From contig NZ_CP016279.1 of the NCBI RefSeq assembly GCF_001542625.1, forward strand, positions 10,540,001 to 10,604,000: DNA of 64,000 nucleotides. The letters run 5' to 3'. This document shows, one piece after another, positions 9,414-60,417 of this stretch. The position numbers were made by a program, and so were the translations under genes. The first letter of the stretch is position 1. Each line of letters begins with the position of its first letter. The notes below the pieces were generated by a model. It saw only the letters and a list, made by a program, of their open reading frames with translations. It searched no databases and had not been told where the DNA came from. Origin of the DNA: Streptomyces griseochromogenes. Its GTDB lineage: Bacteria; Actinomycetota; Actinomycetes; Streptomycetales; Streptomycetaceae.

Positions 9414-10184
9414 TCAGTCCTCGATCATCGCGACGGCACGGGTCCAGCCCGCCCCCGCACCGACGATCTTGATGGGGAAGCAGGACACGGTGAAACCGAA
9501 ACGCGGCAGCGCGTCGAGATTCGCCAGCCGTTCGATCTGGCAGTACTCGCGCTCCCGGCCCGCGAAGTGGGCGGGCCACAGAACCCCGCGGTCCCCGCCG
9601 GCCTGATAGCGCCCGATCATGTCGGTGAACGGCGCGTCCAGGCTGAAGGCGTCGGTGCCGATGACCCGCACGCCCATGTCGAGGAGAAGGTGCACGGCCG
9701 AGCGGTCGAGCCCGACGAAGTCGGTGAAGTACTTCGGGGTACCCACAAGCTCCGAGGCGCCCGTCTTCAGCAGCACGATGTCGAGTGCGCTGGGGGTGTA
9801 GCCGATGGAGGCCAGCTCCTTCTCCACGTACGAGGCGTCCACCGCACCCGGCTCCAGGCCGGTCAGGTCCAGGACGACGCCCGGGTTGTGGAACCACTCC
9901 AGCGGCATCTCGTCGATGTGGCGCGGCGCCCCGTCGGGCCCCTTCGACCCGTAGTGGGACGGCGCGTCGATGTGCGTCCCGGTGTGCGTGGTCAGGCTCA
10001 GGGTGTCGATGGAGAGCAGCTCGCCGTCGGGCAGCACCGACGGGTCGAAGTCGATGCCGAAGTGCTCGCGCATCTCCTCGCTCATGTGCACGGCGCCCTC
10101 GGCCGGGGTCATGACCGTGTGGGAGATCGGCTCGGGCTCCCAGCCGACCGCGTCGATCGGTGAGGAAAGATCGATCAAGCGCAT
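9414..10184 (-). CDS. Metal-dependent polyketide cyclase (cyclase/kynurenine formamidase fold)
   Basis: 256 aa, ATG with AAGGAG upstream. The signature HTGTHIDAPSHY at residues 67-78 supplies the metal-binding His67, His71, Asp73 and His77 of the PF04199 'cyclase' family. Relatives in aromatic clusters (OxyN, MtmY type) close the second and third rings after the aromatase has formed the first. It is the last gene of a three-gene operon behind an SDR and a flavoprotein. Primary-metabolic kynurenine formamidases share the fold, but the surroundings make that unlikely. Which ring it closes is inference. Confidence 0.88.
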   Translation of the reverse strand: MRLIDLSSPIDAVGWEPEPISHTVMTPAEGAVHMSEEMREHFGIDFDPSVLPDGELLSIDTLSLTTHTGTHIDAPSHYGSKGPDGAPRHIDEMPLEWFHNPGVVLDLTGLEPGAVDASYVEKELASIGYTPSALDIVLLKTGASELVGTPKYFTDFVGLDRSAVHLLLDMGVRVIGTDAFSLDAPFTDMIGRYQAGGDRGVLWPAHFAGREREYCQIERLANLDALPRFGFTVSCFPIKIVGAGAGWTRAVAMIED

Positions 10185-10219
10185 TCTGACTCCTTCGGTC
10201 AGTCGGATCGGGGGATTGG

Positions 10220-11467
10220 TCAGTCGGTCGTGAAGAGGTCGGTCCGCACCCGTACCGGCGTGGGGCCGTAGGCGATCCGGCGGGTGATCTTCATGCCGAT
10301 GGGGGTCTTGGTGATGAGCTTGCCGATCAGCGGCCGCAGCACGGCGGCGGGACCGCTGCCTCGCGCGAACATCCCCTTGGCCTGCATCACCTGCATCCGC
10401 ATCACCGTGTCGATGTCGCCACGGCGAGCGTCCTCGTAGCGCCGGAGGAAGCCTGCATCGGCGGTGTTCTCGCGCAGCGACTCCATGAGGACGGGGTGCA
10501 GGAGCGCCGCGTCCTGGAGGGCGAGGTTGATGCCCTGGGCGCCGAGCGGGCTGTGGGTGTGGGCGCTGTCACCGGCGAGGACAAGCCCGTCGCGCACCCA
10601 GCTCTTCGCCGCACCCGCGAAAACGTCCAGGAGCGTGAGGTCGTGCAGGCTGGTGAGCCCGGAGCGGATCAGGCCGGCGTAGGGCGGGACCGCTCTGGCG
10701 ATCTCCTCCCGCACGTGCTCGATGCCGTGCTTCGCGACCTCCCGGTAGCCCTTGTGGGGAAGGGTCCAGCCGATCTGCACACTGCCGGGCCAGGAGTGGT
10801 AGACGATGACCGGGCTGCCTTCGTAGCGGAAGATCTGCACATCCGGATCGCGGTCCGTGGGCGGCGGAGCGGGGAGTTTGAACCACAGGACATCGAAGTC
10901 GAAGACGTCGTTCCGCTCGTGTTCGATGTCGGCCAGCCGCCGGATCTTGGAGTAGCGGCCGTCCGCGCCGATCACACAGTGGGAGTGGACGGTGAACTCG
11001 CCCTCGGGGCCCTTGGCCAGGATCCCCCTGACCGCTCCGCCCTCCTCCCGCAGCGCGCTGGCCTTGCCCCCGGCGAGCAGGGTGAAGCCCTCGTATGCAC
11101 GGCACCGGTCAAGGAGCTCGCTGAGCAGGTGCCGCTGGGGAATGCTCAGGAGGTAGTTGTACGGCTCCGGGAGCTTGCGGTAGTCGATGTCGAGCTGGGT
11201 ACGGTCGCCCTCGACCAACCGGAACTTGGAGTGCCGGAAACACCCCCGGTTCTGGGCGCCTTCCAGAACCCCGAGCTGGTCGAGCAGCAGCAGCCCACCG
11301 GGCTGGAGTATCTCGCCGCGGTACTCGCGTTCGAGGGAAAGGGACCGCTCGGCGACCAGCACGCGGGCGCCCGAGCGCAGCAGCATGAGCGCCAGGGCGA
11401 GACCGGCGGGGCCGCCTCCCACGATGCAGAAGTCCGTCTTGATCTCGTTCAACTCAGTCTCCCCCAC
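10220..11467 (-). CDS. FAD-dependent hydroxylase (group A, short form)
   Basis: 415 aa from the GTG at 11467. An in-frame TTG at 11452 is a serious alternative: GGGGGAG lies 7 bp before it, and the protein would begin MNEIKTDFCIVGGGPAG. Motifs: CIVGGGPAGLALALMLL (FAD), VIGADGRYSKIRRLA (DG motif) and VLAGDSAHTHSPLGAQGINLALQD. It ends after the catalytic domain without the thioredoxin-like tail of the other flavoprotein. REYRGEILQPGGLLLL and IPQRHLLSELLDRC resemble hydroxylases acting on tetracycline-like or quinone substrates. It lies 6 bp behind the SDR stop and 35 bp before the cyclase, so all three are co-transcribed. Confidence 0.9.
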   Translation of the reverse strand: MGETELNEIKTDFCIVGGGPAGLALALMLLRSGARVLVAERSLSLEREYRGEILQPGGLLLLDQLGVLEGAQNRGCFRHSKFRLVEGDRTQLDIDYRKLPEPYNYLLSIPQRHLLSELLDRCRAYEGFTLLAGGKASALREEGGAVRGILAKGPEGEFTVHSHCVIGADGRYSKIRRLADIEHERNDVFDFDVLWFKLPAPPPTDRDPDVQIFRYEGSPVIVYHSWPGSVQIGWTLPHKGYREVAKHGIEHVREEIARAVPPYAGLIRSGLTSLHDLTLLDVFAGAAKSWVRDGLVLAGDSAHTHSPLGAQGINLALQDAALLHPVLMESLRENTADAGFLRRYEDARRGDIDTVMRMQVMQAKGMFARGSGPAAVLRPLIGKLITKTPIGMKITRRIAYGPTPVRVRTDLFTTD

Positions 11468-11473
11468 CGCGCC

Positions 11474-12226
11474 TCAGGCACGGAGCCCCAGGCCACCGTC
11501 CACGGTGACGGTCTGGCCCTGAATCCAGGCGGCCTCGTCGGTGCACAGGAGGGCGATGGCGTCGGCCACATCGCTGGGTGTGGTCAGTCGTCCGGCAGGT
11601 GTACGGGTGGCCAGCACGCGCGCCGCCTCCGGTGCCGTCGTCGCCTCGCCCTTGTCCAGCTTGGCTGTGGACACCGCGTTGACCGCGATGCCATGGGGCG
11701 CGAGCTCGACGGCGAGGTAGCGTACGAAGCTTTCCAGGCCCGCCTTCGCGACCCCCAGACCGACGTAGCCCGGCACGACCCGTCCGGCGCCGGAGCTGGA
11801 GACCGCCACGATCCTGCCGGAGCCCTTGGTCATCGCCTCGGCGAGTGCGGGCGCCGCGCTCAGCAGAGGGACGAGCGACACCTCCAGGGTGTCCCGGAAA
11901 CCGTCGAGATCCGGCTCGGCCGCCCGCATGGGCCGCAGGGACGAGGTGTTGTGCACGAAGACGTCCAGGGAACCGTGGGCCTTGGCCACCTGCTCGATCG
12001 CGGTCCGCATCCCCTCAGGCCGCGAGACGTCGGCCTTGAGCGCGGTGGCGGTACCGCCGAGCTGCCCGAGTGAGGCAACAGCGGCGTCCGCATCGGCGCA
12101 GGAGTGCGCGTAGTTGAGGTACACGTGGCATCCGGCGGCGCACAGCTTCCGCGCAGTCGCCAGGCCCAGTCCCCGTGTCGCCCCGGTCACCAGGGCGACA
12201 CGCCCTTCGAGTCCCAGCCTCGTCAT
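11474..12226 (-). CDS. SDR oxidoreductase, FabL/enoyl-reductase-like
   Basis: 250 aa. ATG at 12226 is chosen over one eight codons upstream because GGAAAGG precedes it and VALVTGATRGLG then sits at the usual place. The catalytic pair is spaced Tyr-x6-Lys (YVGLGVAK), as in enoyl-ACP reductases FabI/FabL, instead of the Tyr-x3-Lys of common SDR ketoreductases. The ending IQGQTVTVDGGLGLRA is typical of SDRs. In this operon (SDR, flavoprotein, cyclase) it probably reduces a carbonyl or double bond on the polyketide core; a role in lipid synthesis seems less likely. It carries its own repeat box at 12279-12296. Confidence 0.85.
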   Translation of the reverse strand: MTRLGLEGRVALVTGATRGLGLATARKLCAAGCHVYLNYAHSCADADAAVASLGQLGGTATALKADVSRPEGMRTAIEQVAKAHGSLDVFVHNTSSLRPMRAAEPDLDGFRDTLEVSLVPLLSAAPALAEAMTKGSGRIVAVSSSGAGRVVPGYVGLGVAKAGLESFVRYLAVELAPHGIAVNAVSTAKLDKGEATTAPEAARVLATRTPAGRLTTPSDVADAIALLCTDEAAWIQGQTVTVDGGLGLRA

Positions 12227-12278
12227 GCCTGGCCTTTCCATGAAGTTCATCGGTGCGATGACGATGGTGTGGCCGGGC

Positions 12279-12296
12279 GTTGGAGGGCGATTGGAG
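12279..12296 (-). promoter_or_regulatory. SARP-type direct repeats for SDR-flavoprotein-cyclase operon
   Basis: Two heptamers, 12279-12285 and 12290-12296, period 11 bp; in gene direction CTCCAAT and CTCCAAC, the best-conserved pair in the cluster. The near edge is 53 bp from the SDR start. Confidence 0.62.
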
Positions 12297-12320
12297 CAGC
12301 GATCGCGCGGGCGCCGCCCG

Positions 12321-13706
12321 CTACCAGGTGGTGTGCAGGGCAGCGATGAGACTGCGCGCCTGCACGTTCAGGTAATTGCCGTGCTTCAGCAGGTCCATGG
12401 CCTGCCCGACGGTGATCCAGAGGAAGCCGTCGGGGGCGTCGGCAGGGGTGTCCTCGCCCGCCTCGACGATGAGATAGCGGTTCTGCGCGTGATAGAAACG
12501 GCCGCCTTCCTCCGACTGCGTGGAGTCGTAGCGCACGCGGTCGCCGGTCGCGGCGAGCACCTCCTCCAGATAGGGAGGCGAGGGCAGACCCCGGCGATCA
12601 CCGGGGCTGCACTGAACGGTCGGGGCCAGCTCCGCCCCGGCAAGCGAACCGGCCTCGGTCCGCGCCCGGGCGAGAAGGTGCAGCACCCCGTCGAACTCCT
12701 TCGTCAGAAAGGCCGACACCTCCGGCCCGCGCGGTTCGAGCAGCGGCTGCGACCAGCGCCCGACCTCCCGGTTGGCCGCCTTCACATGGGCGCCGACGAT
12801 CCGGAAATACCGGCCGTCCTCATGAGTGATCTCCATGTCGGAGCAGTCCCAGCCCGCGACCTGGCCGAGCGGTATGCGGCGCTGCACATGGCGCTGCAGG
12901 ACGCGCTGCTCGGTCAGCAAGCCGAGAACCTCCTGGGTGCTGTGGCGGCCGGGGGAGTGGTCGATCGAGCGGCGCAGCGCCGCCCGGTAACCGTCCTCGG
13001 CCTCGGACTCCGGCGGCGCGGCGAACGGCATGCACGACAGGACCGTGCGCGCGTCCATGTTGACGGCGTTGTCCACGGTCAGCAGCCGCAGAACCTGGCC
13101 GAGCGTGAGCCAGCGGTAGTCCTCGTGCTCCGGTACGTCCTCAGTGGTCTCCACGACGATGTTGCGGTTGCGTTTGCGTAGGAACCAGGAGCCCTGTTCG
13201 GACTGGAGCGTGTCGACCAGCACGCGCCCGGGGCGCGGGGCGCGGAAGTACTCGACGTACGGCGTCGGCTGACCGCCGTGGACCCCGGTGTAGTTGCTGT
13301 GGGTGGCCTGCACCGTGGGCGACAGCTGGATCACATTGACGTTCCCGGGCTCCATCTTCGCCTGCATGAGACAGTGCAGGACCCCGTCGAACTCCTTGAC
13401 CAGGATGCCCAGGATCCCGGTCTCGGGCTGGTTGATGATGGGCTGGTCCCACCCGCTCTCCCCGACGTTCACCCGCAGGCCCTCGATGGAGAAGAACCGG
13501 CCGCTCCGGTGGACCAGGTCGCCGTACTCGGGCTCGAAGAACCAGCCGTCCAGTTCGCTCAGCGCACTGAGGGTCACGTCGAAGTCATGCGCCACCGCCC
13601 GCTCGCGGAGCCAGGACTCCAGCGCGTCGTCGGAGGTCAGCGGGGATTCGGCGGCGAGGGCCGAGCGGGTAAGGCGGAGGCCGTCATCGGCCGCGTCATC
13701 GGTCAT
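12321..13706 (-). CDS. NDP-hexose 2,3-dehydratase
   Basis: 461 aa; ATG at 13706 has GGGAG upstream. The protein is an internal duplication typical of the hexose 2,3-dehydratase family (TylX3, UrdS, MtmV). Each half has a W-S/D-QP-I/L block followed by G-x-L-V/x-F-L-x-K-EFDGVLH (ILVKEFDGVLHCLMQAK, FLTKEFDGVLHLLARAR), then PTVQ with a following P-YLE or P-YVEYF motif, and RY/RFYxxxNR. It removes the 2-OH of TDP-4-keto-6-deoxyglucose, the first step to 2-deoxysugars; the product needs the 3-ketoreductase encoded at 14561. Its promoter box lies inside the 3' end of the epimerase gene. Confidence 0.95.
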   Translation of the reverse strand: MTDDAADDGLRLTRSALAAESPLTSDDALESWLRERAVAHDFDVTLSALSELDGWFFEPEYGDLVHRSGRFFSIEGLRVNVGESGWDQPIINQPETGILGILVKEFDGVLHCLMQAKMEPGNVNVIQLSPTVQATHSNYTGVHGGQPTPYVEYFRAPRPGRVLVDTLQSEQGSWFLRKRNRNIVVETTEDVPEHEDYRWLTLGQVLRLLTVDNAVNMDARTVLSCMPFAAPPESEAEDGYRAALRRSIDHSPGRHSTQEVLGLLTEQRVLQRHVQRRIPLGQVAGWDCSDMEITHEDGRYFRIVGAHVKAANREVGRWSQPLLEPRGPEVSAFLTKEFDGVLHLLARARTEAGSLAGAELAPTVQCSPGDRRGLPSPPYLEEVLAATGDRVRYDSTQSEEGGRFYHAQNRYLIVEAGEDTPADAPDGFLWITVGQAMDLLKHGNYLNVQARSLIAALHTTW

Positions 13707-13759
13707 GAGTATCTCCCTGTCGTGCCTGCTCAAGGCACCTGCTTGAAGCCACCCCGTCC

Positions 13760-48911: not shown

Positions 48912-48999
48912 GGAGGATTCGCCTAGAGGCCTAGGGCGCACGCTTGGAAAGCGTGTTGGGGGCAACCCCTCACGAGTTCGAATCTCGTATCCTCCGCCA
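48912..48999 (+). tRNA. tRNA-Ser(GGA)
   Basis: 88 nt with encoded CCA. Acceptor GGAGGAT/ATCCTCC, anticodon loop TTGGAAA (GGA), long variable arm, T-loop TTCGAAT. The only tRNA in the window with genomic CCA. Confidence 0.97.
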
Positions 49000-49217: not shown

Positions 49218-49688
49218 TCAGTCCTCGTCGGGGTCGAGGACGCGGCCCTTGAGCCTGATGGGATTGGCGGCGCCCACCCGGAGCTCGCCGTCGGTGTAGC
49301 GGCCCGGCGTCGCGCCGTCGACGGCGGTGACCTGGGCCGCGTAGCCGAGAGCCTCCTGGTTGGTGGACAGGTACGGGTTGTGGGTGAAGGTCAGCTTGCG
49401 GCCCGAGTCGGCCAGCTTGCCCTGGGTGGTCTTCAGGTTGCCCTTGGCCTGGAGCGTGTTGACGTCGTGGTAGGCCCAGGAGAGCCAGCCGGTGAACGCG
49501 AAGCCCGTGGGTGCCTTGAGGGTGAAGGTGACGTCGCCGGGGTTCACCGGGTCCGGGACGGTGCTGAGGATGCCGAAGCTGAGGTGGGCCGGGACTCCGC
49601 CCGGCGCGTCCTCCACGATGCCCTGCTGGAGGATGTACAGCTTGTTCTCGGCTCCCGGCTGAACGGGGGCCTCGGTCTGCGTGGCCAT
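49218..49688 (-). CDS. Stand-alone DED-tail domain protein
   Basis: 156 aa, ATG behind AAGGGAA. Nearly the whole protein is one beta-rich domain with LYILQQGIVEDAPGGVPAHL near residue 17, TLKAPTGFAFTGWLSWAYHD, GATPGRYTDGELRVG and a C-terminal VLDPDED. The same landmarks occur at the C-termini of the NHL-repeat protein (53376-54980) and the Gly/Tyr-rich protein (55612-56226) of this locus. No signal peptide or TM helix. I do not recognise the family. Last gene of a four-gene minus operon. Confidence 0.82.
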   Translation of the reverse strand: MATQTEAPVQPGAENKLYILQQGIVEDAPGGVPAHLSFGILSTVPDPVNPGDVTFTLKAPTGFAFTGWLSWAYHDVNTLQAKGNLKTTQGKLADSGRKLTFTHNPYLSTNQEALGYAAQVTAVDGATPGRYTDGELRVGAANPIRLKGRVLDPDED

Positions 49689-49795
49689 GGTTTCCCTTCT
49701 GTGGGTGGGGGTGTCCGCGTGCGCGGATCCGCTGGTCGCGGGCTTGGGGGTGGGCTCGCTCACGGGCCGTCGGGGCCGGAGCCGGACGCCTCGGG

Positions 49796-50491
49796 TCAGG
49801 CGGGGTGCGCGGGGTCGGTGGGCGCGTGGTCGGCCAGCAGCGGGCCGAGGACGACGAGGGCGCCGAGGGTGACGTCCTCGTAGAGGTAGAAACCCGCTTC
49901 CAGAGGCGGCGGCTCGTCGTCGGTGCGCTCGTCGTCGTCGGCGTCGTCGGCGGCGGCGTCCGGGGTGGTCCCGTGTCCGGTGTCGTCCGGTCCGACGTGG
50001 GGGGCGGGCGTGGAGAGCAGGTCCGTGAGGTCCTGTGCGGCGCCCTGGAGGGCGGTGCGGGCGGTGCTGACCAGCAGGCGCAGGGGGAGGTCGAGGGCGT
50101 TGGCGGTGCGCTGGCCGGGGATCAGCTTCGCCGCGGTGGGGGCCTGTGCGGTGGCGGCGGCGAGCCACTGCACGGGCAGGACGCAGGCGGAGACGATCCG
50201 CTCGCGGGACATGAGGGGCGGGGGCTCGCCGTCGATCATGAGGTCCTCCCACTCCATGAGGTCGAAGAGGAACTGGCCGCCCTTGTAGAGGGGCCAGGGG
50301 CGGACCGTGTCGAGCAGGACGCGGGCGCGTTCGGGTTCGCGTCGGCGCAGAGCCACGCCGTGCCTGGCCAGGGTGCACAGGCACTGGCGCAGACAGCTGT
50401 TGGTGCCGCCGAGGAACGCGAAGGCCCGGTGGTCGGTCGAGGTCAGCGGGCCGGGGACGGTGGCGTCGGCCGGCGGGGGTGTGGTGGTCAC
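49796..50491 (-). CDS. Unknown acidic protein coupled to the polyprenyl synthase gene
   Basis: 231 aa. GTG overlaps the stop of the upstream polyprenyl synthase gene (GTGA), so the two are made together. Notable: AFLGGTNSCLRQCLCTLARH (three Cys in a helix-like stretch), WPLYKGGQFLFDLMEWEDLM, and a central leucine-rich helical segment. A strongly acidic linker (DDADDDERTDDEPPPLE) precedes a final hydrophobic strand GFYLYEDVTLGALVVLGPLL. No family recognised and no signal peptide. Likely a partner of the synthase or the DED-domain proteins. Confidence 0.75.
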   Translation of the reverse strand: MTTTPPPADATVPGPLTSTDHRAFAFLGGTNSCLRQCLCTLARHGVALRRREPERARVLLDTVRPWPLYKGGQFLFDLMEWEDLMIDGEPPPLMSRERIVSACVLPVQWLAAATAQAPTAAKLIPGQRTANALDLPLRLLVSTARTALQGAAQDLTDLLSTPAPHVGPDDTGHGTTPDAAADDADDDERTDDEPPPLEAGFYLYEDVTLGALVVLGPLLADHAPTDPAHPA

Positions 50492-52140
50492 AGTGGCCTT
50501 GAGGTGACGTAGTGGGCGATCTGCCGCAGGACGGCTTTGCCTTCGTTTTCGGGGATGATCCGCAGGTCTTCTTCGAAGCGGGCGATGCCTTCGGCGGCGA
50601 GCCGGTCGGCGAGGTCGGTGGCGTACTCGATGGAGCCGTGCCGGCGCATGGCGGCGAGCAGCTCCTCGGCGTGCTGCTGGGTCTTGTCGCTCCGGCGCTG
50701 CCGCAGGACGTCGAAGAGGCGCGGCCGCTCGTAGGTGCGGGCGGTGCGGAAGAGGTGGATCAGCATCACCGTGCGCTTGCCTTCGAGCAGGTCCCCCAGG
50801 GGCTCCTTGCCGTAGAGGGCCTCCTCGCCGACCAGGTTCAGGATGTCGTCCTGGATCTGGAAGGCGATGCCGATCAACCGGAACGCCTCGTCGAACCGGC
50901 GCAGTACGGCGGGGTCGGTGACGCCGGCGCAGACCGCGCCGATGCGACACGGGCTCATGCACGTGTACCAGCCGGTCTTCTTGGTGCTCATCGTGAAGTA
51001 GGCCTCGTCGGCCTCGGGGACGACCTCGTGGCGGATCCAGCCCAGTTCCATGGCCTGGCCCTCGATCGATTCCCGGCACATGTGCACGGCCTCGTGGATG
51101 AGACCGAGGGTGCGGACCAGGCCGAGTGTTTCGAGGTTGGACAGGACGGCGTCGACGGCGAGCAGGTTCAGCCCGTCACCGACGTTGACGGCCAGGCCCA
51201 GCCCGTGTTCCTCGTGCATGGTGGGCAGGCCGCGCCGATGGGTGGACTCGTCGGCGATGTCGTCGTGGACGAGGAAGCCGTTGTGGAACAGCTCCAGGGC
51301 GGCGGCGGCGCGTACGGCGTCGTCGGGGCGTCCGCCGAAGGCCGCGCAGGCCGCGATGGTCAGCGTGGGCCGCAGGCCCTTGCCCTGCCGGGCGGGATAG
51401 GAGCGCATGAGGTCGTACAGCTCGGCGCGCGGCTCGCGGTCCGGCAGCAGCCGTTCGATCTCCTCGTTGGTGCGGGCCCGGCACCGGCGCATGGTCTCCA
51501 TCAGGTCCGCGTCACGGACGGAGTCCTCCAGCGACCAGCTGGTGCTGACGCGGCCGTCCCACAGCAGGCGCGCGGGCCTGACGGTGGTGTCGCCGATCAG
51601 CGCGGGTGGCGCGGGCGCGTCCTCGGGGGAGCGCCGGGCGAGGAAGTCCAGCGCCGTCCAGTCGACCGGCTCGGCCGCCGGATCCGGGGCGGCGGGCGCC
51701 GCACTTCCCCACAGCTGGGGCGCCTGTTCGCGGTAGACGCCCCAGAGTTCCTGCATGCTGCGCAGACCGGCCGCGCGCTGGGAAAGCAGCGCGAAGGCGC
51801 GCCACACGGCGAGGGCCTCGTCCCGGGAGCCGCGGACGTCGAGGCTGTCGGGCAGGACCTGGTCGACGGGCGGGCGCTGGAGGTCGAACAGCAGGTTCAT
51901 GGCCCGGTTGTCGAAGACGACCTCGACGTCCGGGTCCGGGCAGCGGTCCTGGCGTACGACGATGCGGCTGTGCCGTGCGACGAGCGTGGCGTGGCTGCCG
52001 TCGTTGAAGTGCAGGCCGAGCCGGATGCCGCGCAGCTGGTCGGCGGCGGCGGCGAGGATGGCCGGCGCCCGGTCGGACAGGGCGGCCACGGTCTCGTCCA
52101 GCAGCCGGGCACCCGTGAACGCGGGCAGGGTCTCAGTCAT
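50488..52140 (-). CDS. SCP2-like domain fused to a polyprenyl diphosphate synthase
   Basis: 550 aa. Residues about 20-135 look like an SCP2 sterol-carrier fold (GLHFNDGSHATLVARHSRIV, DVEVVFDNRAMNLLFDLQRP, LPDSLDVRGSRDEAL). After a Pro/Ala linker, residues about 205-545 are an isoprenyl synthase: first Asp-rich motif DDIAD at 293-297, KGLRPTL before it, and second motif DDILN at 431-435 followed by LGDLLEGKRTVMLIHL. DDxxN resembles short-chain GGPP synthases. It makes, and may hold, a prenyl diphosphate. Starts inside the previous gene (8-bp overlap). Confidence 0.85.
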   Translation of the reverse strand: MTETLPAFTGARLLDETVAALSDRAPAILAAAADQLRGIRLGLHFNDGSHATLVARHSRIVVRQDRCPDPDVEVVFDNRAMNLLFDLQRPPVDQVLPDSLDVRGSRDEALAVWRAFALLSQRAAGLRSMQELWGVYREQAPQLWGSAAPAAPDPAAEPVDWTALDFLARRSPEDAPAPPALIGDTTVRPARLLWDGRVSTSWSLEDSVRDADLMETMRRCRARTNEEIERLLPDREPRAELYDLMRSYPARQGKGLRPTLTIAACAAFGGRPDDAVRAAAALELFHNGFLVHDDIADESTHRRGLPTMHEEHGLGLAVNVGDGLNLLAVDAVLSNLETLGLVRTLGLIHEAVHMCRESIEGQAMELGWIRHEVVPEADEAYFTMSTKKTGWYTCMSPCRIGAVCAGVTDPAVLRRFDEAFRLIGIAFQIQDDILNLVGEEALYGKEPLGDLLEGKRTVMLIHLFRTARTYERPRLFDVLRQRRSDKTQQHAEELLAAMRRHGSIEYATDLADRLAAEGIARFEEDLRIIPENEGKAVLRQIAHYVTSRPL

Positions 52141-53212
52141 GGGCACCACCGGCGAACTCCACGATGCCCCCGGTGCGAAAGCCGATACGGCGCCCGCCGA
52201 TACGGCCCTCCACGGTGCACGGGCCGAGGGTCTCGTGCACGCTGAACGGGTGCAGGCTCGTCTCGGACGGGTTGGCGATCCGGCCCGCCGTGTGCGAGCG
52301 GAAGTCGAGGACGAGACGGTCGTCGCCGAGCCGGGCCGTGATCAGCAGCCGGCCGGGCACCTCGGCCGTCGACGGTGTGCCCAGCACGTCCGCCAGCGGC
52401 GGCACGATCACCACCCGGTCGCGGTCCAGGCCGCCGCTGACCGCGACCCGCAGGTTGCGGCGCGGAAAGTGCCGCACCATGCGCCCCTCGTGCCACAGCA
52501 TCACCGACCCGTTGGCCGCGTCCGGCGCACCTGCGGGCTGGATCAGGGTGAAGACCACCGCCGAGGGCGGAGCGGCATCGGCCGGGCCCGAAGGGTCGTT
52601 GACGAACCCGAACACCCAGCCCCCGAGCGCGGGCCAGGACCACCGGCCGCGCACCCGCTCGTGATACCCCAGCAGGTCCGTCGCCGTGACCGTGCCGTCG
52701 CCGTGCCGCAGGGTGCCGGTGCCGAGGACGCCGGGCTCCGACTGCCACCGCAGGTGCTCGTCCTCGCCGAAGGGCGCGCACTGCGAGGTGCACGGCCTGC
52801 TGGTACGGGTCAACCGCACGTCGACCGCCGGTACCGCCGACCGGCCCGCCACCCGGAACGCGCCGGACTCGCCGTGCCGGTGCGGCAGCCGGAAGGCCGA
52901 CCAGGGCAGTTCGGGCTGATCGGCGTTGAACTGCGTCGAACTCCAGCCGTGCCCCTCCTCGTGGACGAGGAGGATCGCCATGTGCTGGCCCTCGGCCGCC
53001 GTGCCGGTACCGCTGCGCCGCCCGTCGGCCGGGGCGCCCGGATCCGCGAGGACGGCGCCGGTGGAGGACCCCAGCACGGACAGGTTGGCGATCAGGGCTT
53101 GCCGGCCGCAGCGTGACAGGAACGCGTAGTGCAGCCACTTGCGGTCGAGTGGATGAGTGAGCGGGGCGTGCGGAAAGGGGCCCGGGGGCCCGAACCTCGG
53201 AAGGGTCGGCAT
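52133..53212 (-). CDS. CrtC/AttH-like lipocalin-fold protein
   Basis: 359 aa from the ATG at 53212; a GTG 14 codons earlier lacks a better RBS. Beta-rich, with WSSTQFNADQPELPWSAFRL, RGRWSWPALGGWVFGFVND, SVMLWHEGRMVRHF and VEGRIGGRRIGFRTGGIVEF at the end. This layout (two lipocalin-like halves with W/G-rich strands) is that of AttH and carotenoid 1,2-hydratase CrtC families, which act on or bind isoprenoid chains. Next to a prenyl synthase this suggests an isoprenoid-binding or -hydrating role. First gene of the minus operon; overlaps the synthase gene. Confidence 0.7.
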   Translation of the reverse strand: MPTLPRFGPPGPFPHAPLTHPLDRKWLHYAFLSRCGRQALIANLSVLGSSTGAVLADPGAPADGRRSGTGTAAEGQHMAILLVHEEGHGWSSTQFNADQPELPWSAFRLPHRHGESGAFRVAGRSAVPAVDVRLTRTSRPCTSQCAPFGEDEHLRWQSEPGVLGTGTLRHGDGTVTATDLLGYHERVRGRWSWPALGGWVFGFVNDPSGPADAAPPSAVVFTLIQPAGAPDAANGSVMLWHEGRMVRHFPRRNLRVAVSGGLDRDRVVIVPPLADVLGTPSTAEVPGRLLITARLGDDRLVLDFRSHTAGRIANPSETSLHPFSVHETLGPCTVEGRIGGRRIGFRTGGIVEFAGGAHD

Positions 53213-53375
53213 GGACACATTTCGAAAGCTAACCCACAGTTGCCAATCTGTCACTTGAAGTAACGATCGGGCAGATGACCTGGTATTACAGAAACGTTCA
53301 CTTCCGTATTCCGGGTTCTGTATCGCAAAGAGCCGTCCGTGGCGGACACTCCGCCACGGACGGCTCCGGCCCGCG

Positions 53376-54980
53376 TCAGTCCTCGTCGTCCCCGAGAACG
53401 GTTGCTCTCAGGCGTACCTCCGGCCGGCCCGCGATCACCGCTCGTCCGTCGGCGTACCGGCCCGGCTCGGCGTCCGCCCGGGCCCGGATGCCGAGGGTGT
53501 AGACCAGGGCCGCCGCCGGATTGCCGGGGGTGTTCAACCGGGGTTCGTCCGTCACCGACAGCGACGTGCCGCCCTCGCACACCGCTGCCGTCGGCTCCGG
53601 AGCCGCGACCACGGAACCGTCGACGCGGTAGTACGCGCATGTCGCCCGGCCCTCGAAGAGGAACCCCGTCGGAGCGGTGAAGCGGTGCTCCACGCGTCCG
53701 GGGGCCCAGGTGTCCGTGGACGAGACCCGAACGTGGATCAACTCACTGCCGCCGCGCGGGATTTCCAGCCCGACCTCCTGACGTACCAGCAGCCGCGCGG
53801 CCGTCGACGGCGTGGCGGCCCGGTCCGCGTCCTCGGCGCGCTCGCCCTCGGCGCGCTCGCCCTCGCCGTGCGGCTGCGGACTCTTGTCCCGTTCCCGCTC
53901 GCTCCCGTCCGGTTCCGGCTCGGCGGCCCGGGAGGCTCCGGTGGTGAGGGGCAGGGCCGCGATCCGGTGGTGGAAGTTGTCCGCCACGAGCAGCCGCCCG
54001 GTCGGGTCCACGGCCAGACCGCACGGATAGGCCAGCGAACCGCCGACGGTGTTCTCCGCCGCCTCGTCCGTCGCGGCCGCCGGGTCCTGCCCCGCGACGA
54101 CGCGCGCCACTCCGTCGGCCAACCGCCATACGCGGTGTCCGTTCATGTCGGCGACGTAGACGGCCCCCTGGACGTCGACCGCCACGGCGCACGGGGCGCT
54201 CCAGTCGGCTGCCGTGGCGTCGGCGTTCCCGCCCGGCGGCCCCGCCAGCACCCGAAGCGTGCCGTCCGTGCCCAGCAGCAGCACCCGACGGCCCACCGGG
54301 TCGGCGATGTACAGCCGGCCCGACGCGTCCGTCGCCAGACCTGCCGGCAGGAACGCCTCCCCGGCGTCGGCCGCCCCTGGATGTCCGGACCGTCCGGATG
54401 CCGCGACGACCGTGCTGATGACACCGTCCCCGCCGACCCTGCGCACTCGGGGAGTGCCCGCCTCGCCGACGTACAGCGATCCGGAGCCGTCCACGGCCAG
54501 GGCGCAGGGGGCGTCCAGCCGGGCGCGGCCGGCGGGGCCGCCGTCACCGTCGCCGCCGCGGGAGCCGTCTCCCACGACGGTGCCGATGACGCCCGAGGGG
54601 TCCAGCCGGCGGACCCGGTGGTTCATCTCATCGGCGATGAACACGGCCCCGTCCGCGCCGACCGCGAGGGCGGCGGGGAAGCCGAGGCGGGCTCGCACCG
54701 CGTCGGCGCCGTCCCCGGCGAAGCCCCGCAGTCCGTCCCCGGCGACCGTGGTCAGCACGCCGGAGCCGTCGATCCGGCGGACCCGGTGGTTGGCGTGATC
54801 GGCGATGAAGACGGCGCCCTGTCCCACGGCCACGTCCGCGGGGAAGGCCAGCCGCGCCTCCGGCGCCGGCCGCCCGTCCCCGGAGAATCCGGCGGTGCCG
54901 TTTCCCGCCACGGTGACCGGCGGGTCGTTCCGGTCCGGGGAGACCGGCTCCCGCGTCCGGGCCGCCGCCTTCGCCGTCAC
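53376..54980 (-). CDS. NHL-repeat beta-propeller with C-terminal DED-tail domain
   Basis: 534 aa from a GTG at 54980 that overlaps the stop of a 25-codon ORF (GTGA). An ATG at 55094 in the same frame is the alternative (572 aa). Residues about 20-330 hold five to six NHL blades, for example GQGAVFIADHANHRVRRIDG, GADGAVFIADEMNHRVRRLD and DVQGAVYVADMNGHRVWRLA. A charged Glu/Arg linker follows, then the DED-tail domain (VRQEVGLEIPRGG, HRFTAPTGFLFEG, EPGRYADG, VLGDDED). No signal peptide. Propellers of this type usually bind ligands or proteins. Confidence 0.82.
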   Translation of the reverse strand: MTAKAAARTREPVSPDRNDPPVTVAGNGTAGFSGDGRPAPEARLAFPADVAVGQGAVFIADHANHRVRRIDGSGVLTTVAGDGLRGFAGDGADAVRARLGFPAALAVGADGAVFIADEMNHRVRRLDPSGVIGTVVGDGSRGGDGDGGPAGRARLDAPCALAVDGSGSLYVGEAGTPRVRRVGGDGVISTVVAASGRSGHPGAADAGEAFLPAGLATDASGRLYIADPVGRRVLLLGTDGTLRVLAGPPGGNADATAADWSAPCAVAVDVQGAVYVADMNGHRVWRLADGVARVVAGQDPAAATDEAAENTVGGSLAYPCGLAVDPTGRLLVADNFHHRIAALPLTTGASRAAEPEPDGSERERDKSPQPHGEGERAEGERAEDADRAATPSTAARLLVRQEVGLEIPRGGSELIHVRVSSTDTWAPGRVEHRFTAPTGFLFEGRATCAYYRVDGSVVAAPEPTAAVCEGGTSLSVTDEPRLNTPGNPAAALVYTLGIRARADAEPGRYADGRAVIAGRPEVRLRATVLGDDED

Positions 54981-55054
54981 GCTGTCACCGTCCGGCGCCG
55001 CCGCAGGGGCGCCCGGGCGGCGTCTCCCACCCTCCACGGCCTCGTCATCCGCAT
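54977..55054 (-). CDS. Putative 25-aa leader peptide of the NHL gene
   Basis: ATG at 55054 has AAAGGAG 7 bp upstream, the best ribosome-binding site of this area. The peptide (MRMTRPWRVGDAARAPLRRR + RTVTA) is Arg-rich, and its TGA overlaps the GTG of the NHL gene. It may couple translation of that gene, or it may mark a frameshift that once joined both frames. Confidence 0.42.
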   Translation of the reverse strand: MRMTRPWRVGDAARAPLRRRRTVTA

Positions 55055-55611
55055 GTCCGTCTCCTTTCCGAGCCGTCGCTGACACCCCCTGCATACCGGC
55101 CGGGCCGACGCCCGCGGGAGCAGCGCACCGAGCGCTCCACCCGCACGAGGGAGGAGCCGCCGGGGACGGACGGAGAGGACGGACGGAGAGGACGGACGGC
55201 GGGGGCCGGGACGGACCAGACGGCCACGGGCGCCACCGGCTTCAGCGGGCGCTGGGCCGGCGCGCTCCGCATCCGTGCGCCCCCGCATGCCCCCGCTCCA
55301 CTCGAACAAGTGACGCAGAATCGATCCCGCATTTCAAATGGGGGAACGGCTGCATATCGCCCGCGGGGCCCGGCTACCCATGGGCCTGGACGACGGCCCG
55401 GCGCATGCCGTTCGACTGCGTGACGACCCGACCGAAGCCTCCGGTGGCGTCCTGCGCTCCGTCCGCGGACACCGCTCTCATGGCGTCCCGTGCTCCGCGC
55501 ACCGCGCGGAATCGGCGCCAGGCCCTGGCCGTCCCGGCGGTCCGGGGTGATCCGCGCCAGGACGTCCTTTTCACCGCACGCTTCGATCACAGCCCCAGGA
55601 GGGACTCGGAG
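55055..55611. other. Divergent promoter region of the DED-domain locus
   Basis: 557 bp between the NHL gene and the plus-strand pair. It has a 13-bp tandem repeat (2.8 copies) at 55164-55199 and a relatively AT-rich patch at 55305-55340, the best place for promoters. No ORF in it has a convincing start or domain. Confidence 0.5.
55164..55199. repeat. 13-bp tandem repeat, 2.8 copies
   Basis: Unit GGACGGACGGAGA repeated in phase. Low complexity; no protein depends on it. Confidence 0.8.
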
Positions 55612-56226
55612 ATGGCCACTGAAGTGCAGTCCGCGAAGAAGGAAGCCTACAAACGGGGCGAGGATCAGGGGCGGGCCGACGCGCTGGCCGGACGCCCGTA
55701 CGCCGACCCGCCACGCGACGGCACACGCGGGGAGAAGGACCACTACGCGAACGGCTACGACTGGGGTTACGAACAGGGCCGTGCGCAGAAGCTGGACCTG
55801 GTGGTCTGGCAGGAAGGAGGGGTCGAGGACGCCCCCGGTGGCCTGGGCACCACCATCAACATCTGCGTCCGTACGCCGAACTGGAGCGAGACCGTCGACG
55901 CCGGTGAACGGGAGCACGTCTTCACCGCCCCCACCGGATTCCGCTGGAACGGCATGGTGGGCGCCCAGTACAAGCGCATGGACCAGACGACGGGCGGCAG
56001 CCTGCCGCCCGTCCAGGCCAAGGTCGACGCCGACGGGCGCACGCTGACCTTCACCTACCACGTGCACCTGAACACGACCGACCAGGACAAGGACTGCATC
56101 GTCTACACCTGCGGTCTCGAAGCCGTCGACGGCGCCAAGCTCGGTCGCTACACCGACGGCGTCGCCCAGCTCGGCACCGCGCCCCCGGCCAAGCTCAAGG
56201 CCGAGGTCATCGAGGACGAGGACTGA
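55612..56226 (+). CDS. Gly/Tyr-rich N-terminus plus DED-tail domain
   Basis: 204 aa, ATG behind AGGAGGG. Residues 1-60 are hydrophilic with spaced Gly/Tyr: AYKRGEDQGRADALAGRPYA, YANGYDWGYEQGRAQ. The spacing faintly recalls the ribosome modulation factor motif. Residues about 62-204 are the DED-tail domain: LVVWQEGGVEDAPGGLGTTI, VFTAPTGFRWNGMVGAQY, GAKLGRYTDG, and VIEDED at the very end. No signal peptide. Followed after 20 bp by the anchor-K/lamin-tail gene, same operon. Confidence 0.82.
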   Translation: MATEVQSAKKEAYKRGEDQGRADALAGRPYADPPRDGTRGEKDHYANGYDWGYEQGRAQKLDLVVWQEGGVEDAPGGLGTTINICVRTPNWSETVDAGEREHVFTAPTGFRWNGMVGAQYKRMDQTTGGSLPPVQAKVDADGRTLTFTYHVHLNTTDQDKDCIVYTCGLEAVDGAKLGRYTDGVAQLGTAPPAKLKAEVIEDED

Positions 56227-56246
56227 GAGAGCAGGAGCAGGACACC

Positions 56247-57110
56247 ATGACCACCGTCGTCACTTCCGGCGTCTTCCCGTCCACCACCCCGGCCATCTCC
56301 CCGGTCAACGGGCTGGGCACCGCAGACGTCAGATGGGGCAGCAGCGGCTCCCAGAGCGGGTACCAGTTCCGCGGCGCGGCCGCGGACGTCGAGCTCGACG
56401 GCACCGAGTTCGTCGTCGGTACCTTCGTGCACCGCAACCTCCCCACCACCGTCAGCCCGAGCAAGTTCAACGTCCTGCTCGCCGTCAACGTCATGTTCGA
56501 GGACGGCAGCACGACCGATCTGAACTTCGCCTTCCATCACTACGAGACACCCAACAGCACCGGCAGCAGTCCCGTGGACGACGATCTGGTCGATCTCCAG
56601 GAGTTCATCCACCCTCAGCCGGTCACGATCGGCGGGAAGCAGTACAGGGCGGTGCTGAGCGGGTTCAAGCGGGGCGGCCGGATCGTCCGGCAGTTCCGCA
56701 GCCCCGAGGGCGGAGTCAACTTCGCCGAGGTCGTCTGCATGTTCGCCTTCGACGAGCCGGACGTGATCATCTCCGACCTGCGCTACCTGGGCAGCGGCAC
56801 GGGCCAGCCCGACGAGTACATCGAGATCTTCAACAAGGGCGGCGCGCCCCAGGATCTGACCGGCTGGATGGTGGAGTGCAAGCCCACCGGGCACGCCTAC
56901 ACCTTCCCGCCGGGGACGGTCATCCAGCCCGGCCAGCGCTACCGGGTCTACACCGACGAGGTCCGCCAGGAGTTCGGCGGCTTCTCCTTCGGCTCCTCCG
57001 AGCAGGTGTGGCGTGACGAGGGCGGCATCGGCCGCCTGGTCCACGACGGCTTCGTCGTGGACCAGTACCCCTACCTCGACAAGGGCTTCAACAAGACCGC
57101 CGCGCCGTAG
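56247..57110 (+). CDS. Choice-of-anchor-K-like domain plus lamin-tail domain
   Basis: 287 aa. Residues about 20-168 resemble the 'choice-of-anchor K' beta domain: FVVGTFVHRNLPTTVSPSKF, VNVMFEDGSTTDLNFAFHHY, SPEGGVNFAEVVCMF. Residues about 173-270 are a lamin-tail (LTD) Ig-like fold: IISDLRYLGSGTGQPDEYIE, IFNKGGAPQDLTGWMVE, YTFPPGTVIQPGQRYRVYTD. LTDs usually sit on secreted or envelope proteins, yet no signal peptide or sortase motif is present. It pairs with the DED-domain protein upstream; probably a binding or scaffold protein. Confidence 0.82.
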   Translation: MTTVVTSGVFPSTTPAISPVNGLGTADVRWGSSGSQSGYQFRGAAADVELDGTEFVVGTFVHRNLPTTVSPSKFNVLLAVNVMFEDGSTTDLNFAFHHYETPNSTGSSPVDDDLVDLQEFIHPQPVTIGGKQYRAVLSGFKRGGRIVRQFRSPEGGVNFAEVVCMFAFDEPDVIISDLRYLGSGTGQPDEYIEIFNKGGAPQDLTGWMVECKPTGHAYTFPPGTVIQPGQRYRVYTDEVRQEFGGFSFGSSEQVWRDEGGIGRLVHDGFVVDQYPYLDKGFNKTAAP

Positions 57111-59808: not shown

Positions 59809-60417
59809 TCACCCCCGGGGTCGCGCGCCCAGGTGTCCGACCCCGGCGGCCAGTGCCGCCGTCACCGGCCGCGGGGGGACGTCCGGGGCGCCCTGGGGCT
59901 TTGCGGGAAGCCGGGTCCGGGCGCTCAGGGGGAGTTCGATCTGGACTCCCCCCGACCGGGTCAGGTTCACCGGGTTGCCGGGGTGGAGGCCGCGCAGGCC
60001 GCCCGGGATCCGGGCCATGTCCGTCACGGTGTCGAAGGCCGGGGCGAGGGCGACGAGGCTGTGGGCCAGGGTGGCTGCCGCGGCGCGGTTGCCACCGCCG
60101 AGGAAGATCGAGCGGGGGGCCTCGGGTCGCCGATGGCCGTGCAGGGAGATCACCAGCGTCACGGAGGCGAGGAACTCCTGGAGGGTCTCGCAGTGGGGTG
60201 CGGCCATCCGATGCGACGGGATGTGCACCAGGTCGCCCGCCGGCTGGGTGAAGACCAGGCAGCTGGCGCCCGTACGGGCCGCCACCTCGTGGGCCAGTTC
60301 CGCCGTGCCGCCCTCCTTGGTGCCGTGCAGGGCGATCAGCCCGATGTCCGAGCGGAGCGTCAGCGCGGCGGCGAACTCCACGCCCTCGATCACCACGCTC
60401 TCGGTCTCCACCGTCAT
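59809..60417 (-). CDS. Poly-gamma-glutamate hydrolase family protein
   Basis: 202 aa from the ATG at 60417, which overlaps the stop of the CopC-CopD gene (ATGA). Motifs of the phage-type PGA hydrolase family (PF05908, zinc enzymes): ALHGTKEGGTAELAHEVAAR with His31 and Glu35, FTQPAGDLVHIPSHRMAAP, LVISLHGHRRPEAPRSIFLG. Cytoplasmic by sequence (no signal peptide). It should cut gamma-glutamyl polymers, though many chromosomal relatives have no tested substrate. Confidence 0.82.
   Translation of the reverse strand: MTVETESVVIEGVEFAAALTLRSDIGLIALHGTKEGGTAELAHEVAARTGASCLVFTQPAGDLVHIPSHRMAAPHCETLQEFLASVTLVISLHGHRRPEAPRSIFLGGGNRAAAATLAHSLVALAPAFDTVTDMARIPGGLRGLHPGNPVNLTRSGGVQIELPLSARTRLPAKPQGAPDVPPRPVTAALAAGVGHLGARPRG

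Follow-up and report, generated by a model that had tools for sequence, protein, structure and literature searches.

A compact seven-gene cassette in scattered Streptomyces genomes suggests an undescribed two-enzyme isoprenoid module accompanied by three proteins with a shared C-terminal domain

Introduction

Among the systems described so far, type IX secretion C-terminal domains (CTDs), PEP-CTERM proteins and dockerins combine varied heads with a common module at the C-terminus, and Gram-positive pilins, MSCRAMM adhesins and cohesin modules are built as immunoglobulin (Ig)-like beta-sandwiches. AttH/CrtC-like double-barrel enzymes include CghA, Fsa2, Phm7, kievitone hydratase and 25-phosphosteroid lyase, and E-type polyprenyl synthases usually carry a second aspartate-rich motif of the form DDxxD. 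The polyprenyl transferases of family-2 encapsulins are actinobacterial prenyl synthases that have an additional stretch at the N-terminus and are accompanied by accessory genes, and those serving as cargo are described as having disordered N-termini (PMC8346489). In this study, we investigated a seven-gene cassette (positions 49218-57110) in a 64,000-nucleotide stretch of Streptomyces griseochromogenes (NZ_CP016279.1, 10,540,001-10,604,000 of the forward strand), hereafter the window. In it, a putative two-enzyme isoprenoid module not described before stands beside three proteins that join different heads to the same C-terminal domain and may form a small scaffold or display system; no paper on this locus was found in the open-licence PMC literature. 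Its genes are as follows:

A, 49218..49688, minus strand: stand-alone shared domain of 156 residues, ending DPDED; Ig-like beta-sandwich in the AlphaFold model
B, 49796..50491, minus strand: acidic protein of 231 residues with a GTG start and a 4-bp overlap with the stop of C
C, 50488..52140, minus strand: conserved N-terminal domain of about 150 residues fused to an E-type polyprenyl synthase
D, 52133..53212, minus strand: double beta-barrel protein of the AttH/CghA/kievitone hydratase type, 359 residues
E, 53376..54980, minus strand: NHL beta-propeller, linker and shared C-terminal domain, ending DDED
F, 55612..56226, plus strand: short Gly/Tyr/Arg-rich head and shared C-terminal domain, ending EDED
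G, 56247..57110, plus strand: choice-of-anchor K domain and lamin-tail domain, without the shared domain

D matches the fold of the AttH/CrtC-like enzymes, and differs from them in its low identity (8-14%), its lack of a Pfam match and its linkage to a prenyl synthase. The shared domain is similar to pilins, MSCRAMMs and cohesins in fold and size, a generic similarity with 2-16% identity in the rows shown, but it has no signal-peptide-like stretch, lies at the extreme C-terminus and, in the cassette, has an acidic end. It also joins different heads to one module, a likeness to type IX CTDs, PEP-CTERM and dockerins at the level of general description, although none of the cassette genes was recognised as encoding a known transport or scaffold partner. 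C shares the actinobacterial origin, extra N-terminal region and accessory genes of the encapsulin transferases, and differs in having no shell gene at the locus, a profile score under the cut-off, a conserved N-terminal domain and an AttH-type partner.

Results

The three domain proteins were located exactly where a preliminary description, made from the window's sequence alone, had placed them. Local alignment of the domains gave scores of 211 (A-F), 180 (E-F) and 138 (A-E), against 54, 53 and 68, respectively, for the best of 500 shuffles per pair, and 32 columns are identical in the three-row alignment; the domain in E scores 162.8 bits. Of the motifs proposed as common, APTGF, GRY.DG and the terminal DED are present in A, E and F, but QEG.VEDAPGG can be recognised clearly only in A and F, the sequence of E being different at that place. 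Neither A nor F matched Pfam up to an E-value of 1, and E matched only outside the shared domain; NCBIfam gave no match for A or F, PHROG none for A, E or F, and a search of PDB sequences with the domain none up to an E-value of 5. These empty searches rule out membership of a known family in the libraries covered. AlphaFold modelling, which covered D and the shared domain, returned an Ig-like beta-sandwich for the latter, with pilins, MSCRAMMs and cohesins among the nearest folds.

The acidic end is consistent within the cassette. A ends (D/N)ED in 12 of 12 copies, E ends DED in 10 of the 11 domain-bearing copies and DEDQ in the remaining one, and F ends EDED in 11 of 12, the window being included in each count; the last residues of P0028, an A-like but more distant protein, are EDD.

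When genomes of 84,980 species were scanned for the domain, with two patterns from A- and F-type domains so that distant domains are under-represented, 12 loci emerged. Ten genomes carry all seven genes on a single contig and in unchanged order (the window, L024, L026, L027, L028, L030, L031, L032, L033 and L107; L105 and L106, whose contigs are as long as those of L030 and L032, were not counted besides these), L025 carries all but A at a contig end, and in another genome the cassette is divided between two contigs (L029, L035). Orthologues of A and of F were each found in 11 other loci, and the pairwise ratio of non-synonymous to synonymous substitution rates (dN/dS) between the window genes and five loci was 0.12-0.67. 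When up to 4 kb per side was compared among ten loci, including the partly deleted L036, the flanks were mostly unrelated beyond tens of bases beside A and G, with two exceptions: a 1.1-kb segment shared by the right flank of L027 and the left flank of L030, and a protein of about 200 residues beside A in four of the ten (see below). Fixed order amid mostly unrelated flanks therefore indicates, from sequence comparison, that A-G behaves as a single unit in changing surroundings. In L036 (genome G101), a natural internal deletion at 10026-13749 runs from mid-D to mid-G, leaving A, B and C intact and removing E and F.

In the tree of 62 domains, whose root was set arbitrarily on a second-setting copy (see below), the A clade (support 0.76, with the A-like P0036) and the E clade (support 1.0) are separate across loci, and the F-slot proteins, except that of L108, group with the DUF11-headed P0037. 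By this topology the domain copies are old, and the F slot retains its domain while its head is swapped. Heads seen on the domain are the NHL propeller and Gly/Tyr-rich, lectin-like, DUF11 and DUF642 types. The head of F, which we take to resemble ribosome modulation factor, was assigned to no family in a profile search of F at an E-value of 1 or below.

Variant loci show how the cassette can be rearranged. L034 has the order E (without the domain), D, C, B, F-slot protein and A, with G absent, and its F-slot protein carries a legume-lectin-like and DUF11 head on an F-type domain. In L108, D and C are adjacent and 68% and 73% identical, respectively, to those of the window, and no A, B, E or G was called in 20 kb; an F-like protein, separated from D by about 3.5 kb that include an unrelated gene, has a retained head and a strongly diverged domain (E-value 2.6e-15) and adjoins a DUF642 protein. 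L109, from another genus of the Streptomycetaceae, has a D-C-B operon with a shorter relative of B (36% identical), and in L110 both D and C are broken.

As regards C, PF00348 was matched at an E-value of 4.2e-53 (180.6 bits against a cut-off of 27), in agreement with the prenyl synthase proposed before, and NCBIfam isoprenyl synthase models matched below their cut-offs. The first aspartate-rich motif has the DDxxD form: it is DDIAD in the window, with DDIxD invariant in 18 of 18 sequences; the second is DDxLN in all 18, asparagine replacing the usual last aspartate. At least 63 relatives have the same N-terminus, from named sources including actinomycetes, cyanobacteria and Proteobacteria, and the conserved fusion is kept in them; the homologue counts for C and D are lower bounds from about 8,000 scored candidates each. 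An SCP2 domain, formerly proposed for this N-terminus, could not be confirmed: PF02036 gave no match in the window C up to an E-value of 1 or in seven C N-termini up to 10, C was not one of four SCP2 matches in its own genome at an E-value of 0.01, and profile-profile likeness was weak (hhalign score 24.9 over 68 columns, probability 10%; four SCP2 sequences singly gave 12.3-16.7, and five column shuffles 9.9-14.1). Searching the PDB with the N-termini of eight C proteins yielded two designed repeat proteins, followed by weaker matches to unrelated proteins.

The AlphaFold model of D (predicted local distance difference test, pLDDT, 85) matched the AttH/CrtC double-barrel superfamily in the PDB over its whole length, well above unrelated rows, bearing out the CrtC/AttH-like assignment made earlier. 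PF07143 (CrtC) had no match in D or its own genome, and control genomes gave none either. Homologues of D number at least 396, of which 120 are listed, from sources including actinomycetes, cyanobacteria, Proteobacteria and Chloroflexi (Roseiflexaceae). C adjoins D, whole or partial, in 17 of 17 gene-called loci with C, a pairing directly observed in Streptomycetaceae only; in 15 of the 63 C clusters the longest contig is as long as that of a listed D cluster, a comparison of lengths only, in which at least the 3,618-base pair, from different sources, may be coincidence. The coupling claimed for the minus-strand set holds for D-C-B, with overlaps of 8 bp between C and D (52133-52140) and 4 bp (GTGA) between B and C (50488-50491) that recur among the gene-called loci, but not for A, 107 bp from B, or E, 163 bp from D.

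Profile searches agree with the NHL assignment of E (PF01436, 90 bits against 20, five stretches) and with choice-of-anchor K and lamin-tail domains in G (NF038131, 114.9 bits against 30; PF00932, 63.8 against 34.3). By crude hydropathy only, no signal-peptide-like N-terminal hydrophobic stretch was detected in A-G or in eight proteins from other contexts and variants, whose best 12-residue means were 0.80-1.56, against 2.43 and 2.86 in two positive controls. No export gene was recognised among A-G, the family of B being unassigned.

Two genome samples were examined for co-occurrence. In 295 genomes of the genus, queried for the domain, B, D and G, the domain was found in 10, B in 4, D in 6 (four strong, one of these truncated, and two weak partial matches) and G-like sequence in 31, many with only one half of G and six near-full-length outside the cassette. 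The same four genomes (G000, G017, G101 and G102) carry the domain together with B and a strong D match. In 365 genomes of the family, D was matched in 10 (six intact, one broken and three partial), and domain proteins lie within about 4 kb of D in five of the six intact cases.

With regard to origin and surroundings, D and F had no match in 72,556 plasmid records, and in viral contigs, where D only was examined, the 39 pattern stretches encode no D relative, so plasmid and viral origins were rejected. Anti-phage defence was likewise rejected, the sole PADLOC match being a weak one of the NHL propeller to PD-T4-6 (E-value 2.7e-6, 117 residues), which we take as a propeller match. No clean empty site was found; the right flank is present in G009, but dnaX and the tRNA are absent from the next 1.5 kb. 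A tRNA-Ser (GGA) lies at 48912-48999 of the window, about 220 bp past the A end, between the cassette and dnaX; since no tRNA occurs in nine fetched cassette or variant loci that were scanned, or in L036 and L089, a tRNA insertion site was discarded and its placement is probably chance. A conserved protein of about 200 residues, most copies of which look secreted from their N-termini, stands beside A in L024, L027, L028 and L030 (four of the ten flank-compared loci) and in L035, not in the window. A poly-gamma-glutamate hydrolase-like protein is encoded at 59809-60417 of the window (PF05908, E-value 2.4e-19).

Discussion

Our data is best explained by an isoprenoid enzyme core joined to a domain-organised protein assembly, to which as a whole we give a probability of about 40%. 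C would make a linear all-trans prenyl diphosphate, probably of about C20 in chain length; D, as an AttH-type barrel, would hydrate, cyclise or eliminate on this product, and B would be the translationally coupled partner of C and D. A, E, F and perhaps G would be leaderless proteins gathered by the common Ig-like C-terminal domain. Because its heads are exchangeable and the domain itself is constant, the domain may serve docking or assembly, and stand-alone A would be its minimal subunit. The domain proteins would build a small particle or coat, one complex as earlier suggested, and the C-D product would be made or held on or around it; the physical link between the two halves is what this arrangement predicts. 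A cytoplasmic assembly is favoured because the proteins have no N-terminal hydrophobic stretch, the domain copies are old and the F-slot heads are swapped.

Several observations weaken parts of the preliminary description. The expected company of the domain with a prenyl synthase, an AttH-like D and B was found in one set of Streptomyces loci, but six of the ten domain genomes (G048, G060, G104, G146, G160 and G247) lack B and D. There, in a second setting, leaderless NHL-propeller proteins bear one or two domain copies, and gene calling over the 20 kb fetched gave none of A, B, C, D, F and G. L109 has D-C-B, yet the 20 kb fetched there encode no domain protein; six other genomes of the genus have near-full-length G-like proteins (L082-L087), 41-48% identical to G, with none of the cassette genes beside them; and the SCP2 assignment in C is unconfirmed. 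The acidic extreme C-terminus, proposed as common to the three domain proteins, stands for A, E and F of the cassette and is missing from the L034 F-slot protein, the L108 F-like protein and the second-setting domain proteins. Judged by these sequences, the tail is a property of the cassette and not of the domain; it may serve as a docking tag.

Two rival explanations must be taken seriously, surface display and mere co-carriage. In the former, which is possible though somewhat unlikely, the domain would be an adhesin- or pilin-like Ig module exported non-classically, and the C-D prenyl product would anchor or coat the surface. Heads of extracellular type (NHL, legume-lectin-like, DUF11, DUF642, and the lamin tail and choice-of-anchor K of G) and the nearest folds of the domain speak for it, as do glycan genes near the domain protein in five of the six second-setting loci: a glycosyltransferase-2 family with UDP-GlcNAc 2-epimerase in L037, L038 and L040, a different glycosyltransferase-2 family in L039 and L041, and neither in L042. 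It is opposed by the crude hydropathy scan and by the lack of a recognised export gene. Two independent modules in one cassette, an isoprenoid D-C-B operon and unrelated Ig-tailed proteins, we regard as unlikely. The halves do occur apart, in L109 and in the six genomes with the NHL type only, and G-like proteins are orphans in six genomes; however, the association recurs in the diverged D-C loci L034 and L108, and gene order is fixed across 12 genomes despite changing flanks. A family-2 encapsulin variant, with C as a shell-less cargo-type transferase loaded through a terminal tag, is very improbable, since f2_encap_cargo4 (NF041169), although the second-best NCBIfam profile for C, scores 180.6 bits against a cut-off of 450, the nearest of four SrpI-like shell matches in the genome (L113-L116) is about 1.6 Mb off and tblastn with these shells as queries detected no relative, either in the window or in the 112 loci fetched; the conserved N-terminus of C also differs from the disordered ones described for cargo transferases (PMC8346489).

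Significance

Taken at its fullest, the joint assembly of enzyme core and domain proteins would be a new bacterial system, in which an isoprenoid made by a prenyl synthase and an AttH-type barrel is held in a leaderless Ig-domain assembly with interchangeable heads, the whole travelling among Streptomyces as a single cassette; C and D, each with relatives in several phyla, would then be an unrecognised isoprenoid pathway. This larger claim we consider doubtful. If the halves cooperate, isoprenoid chemistry would be tied to a protein-assembly domain missing from every library searched here. Independently of that link, C and D form a compact, highly conserved enzyme pair with a predicted pathway step in which C supplies a prenyl product to an AttH-type enzyme, and the domain family provides a handle on the leaderless NHL, lectin-like and DUF642 proteins of Streptomyces.
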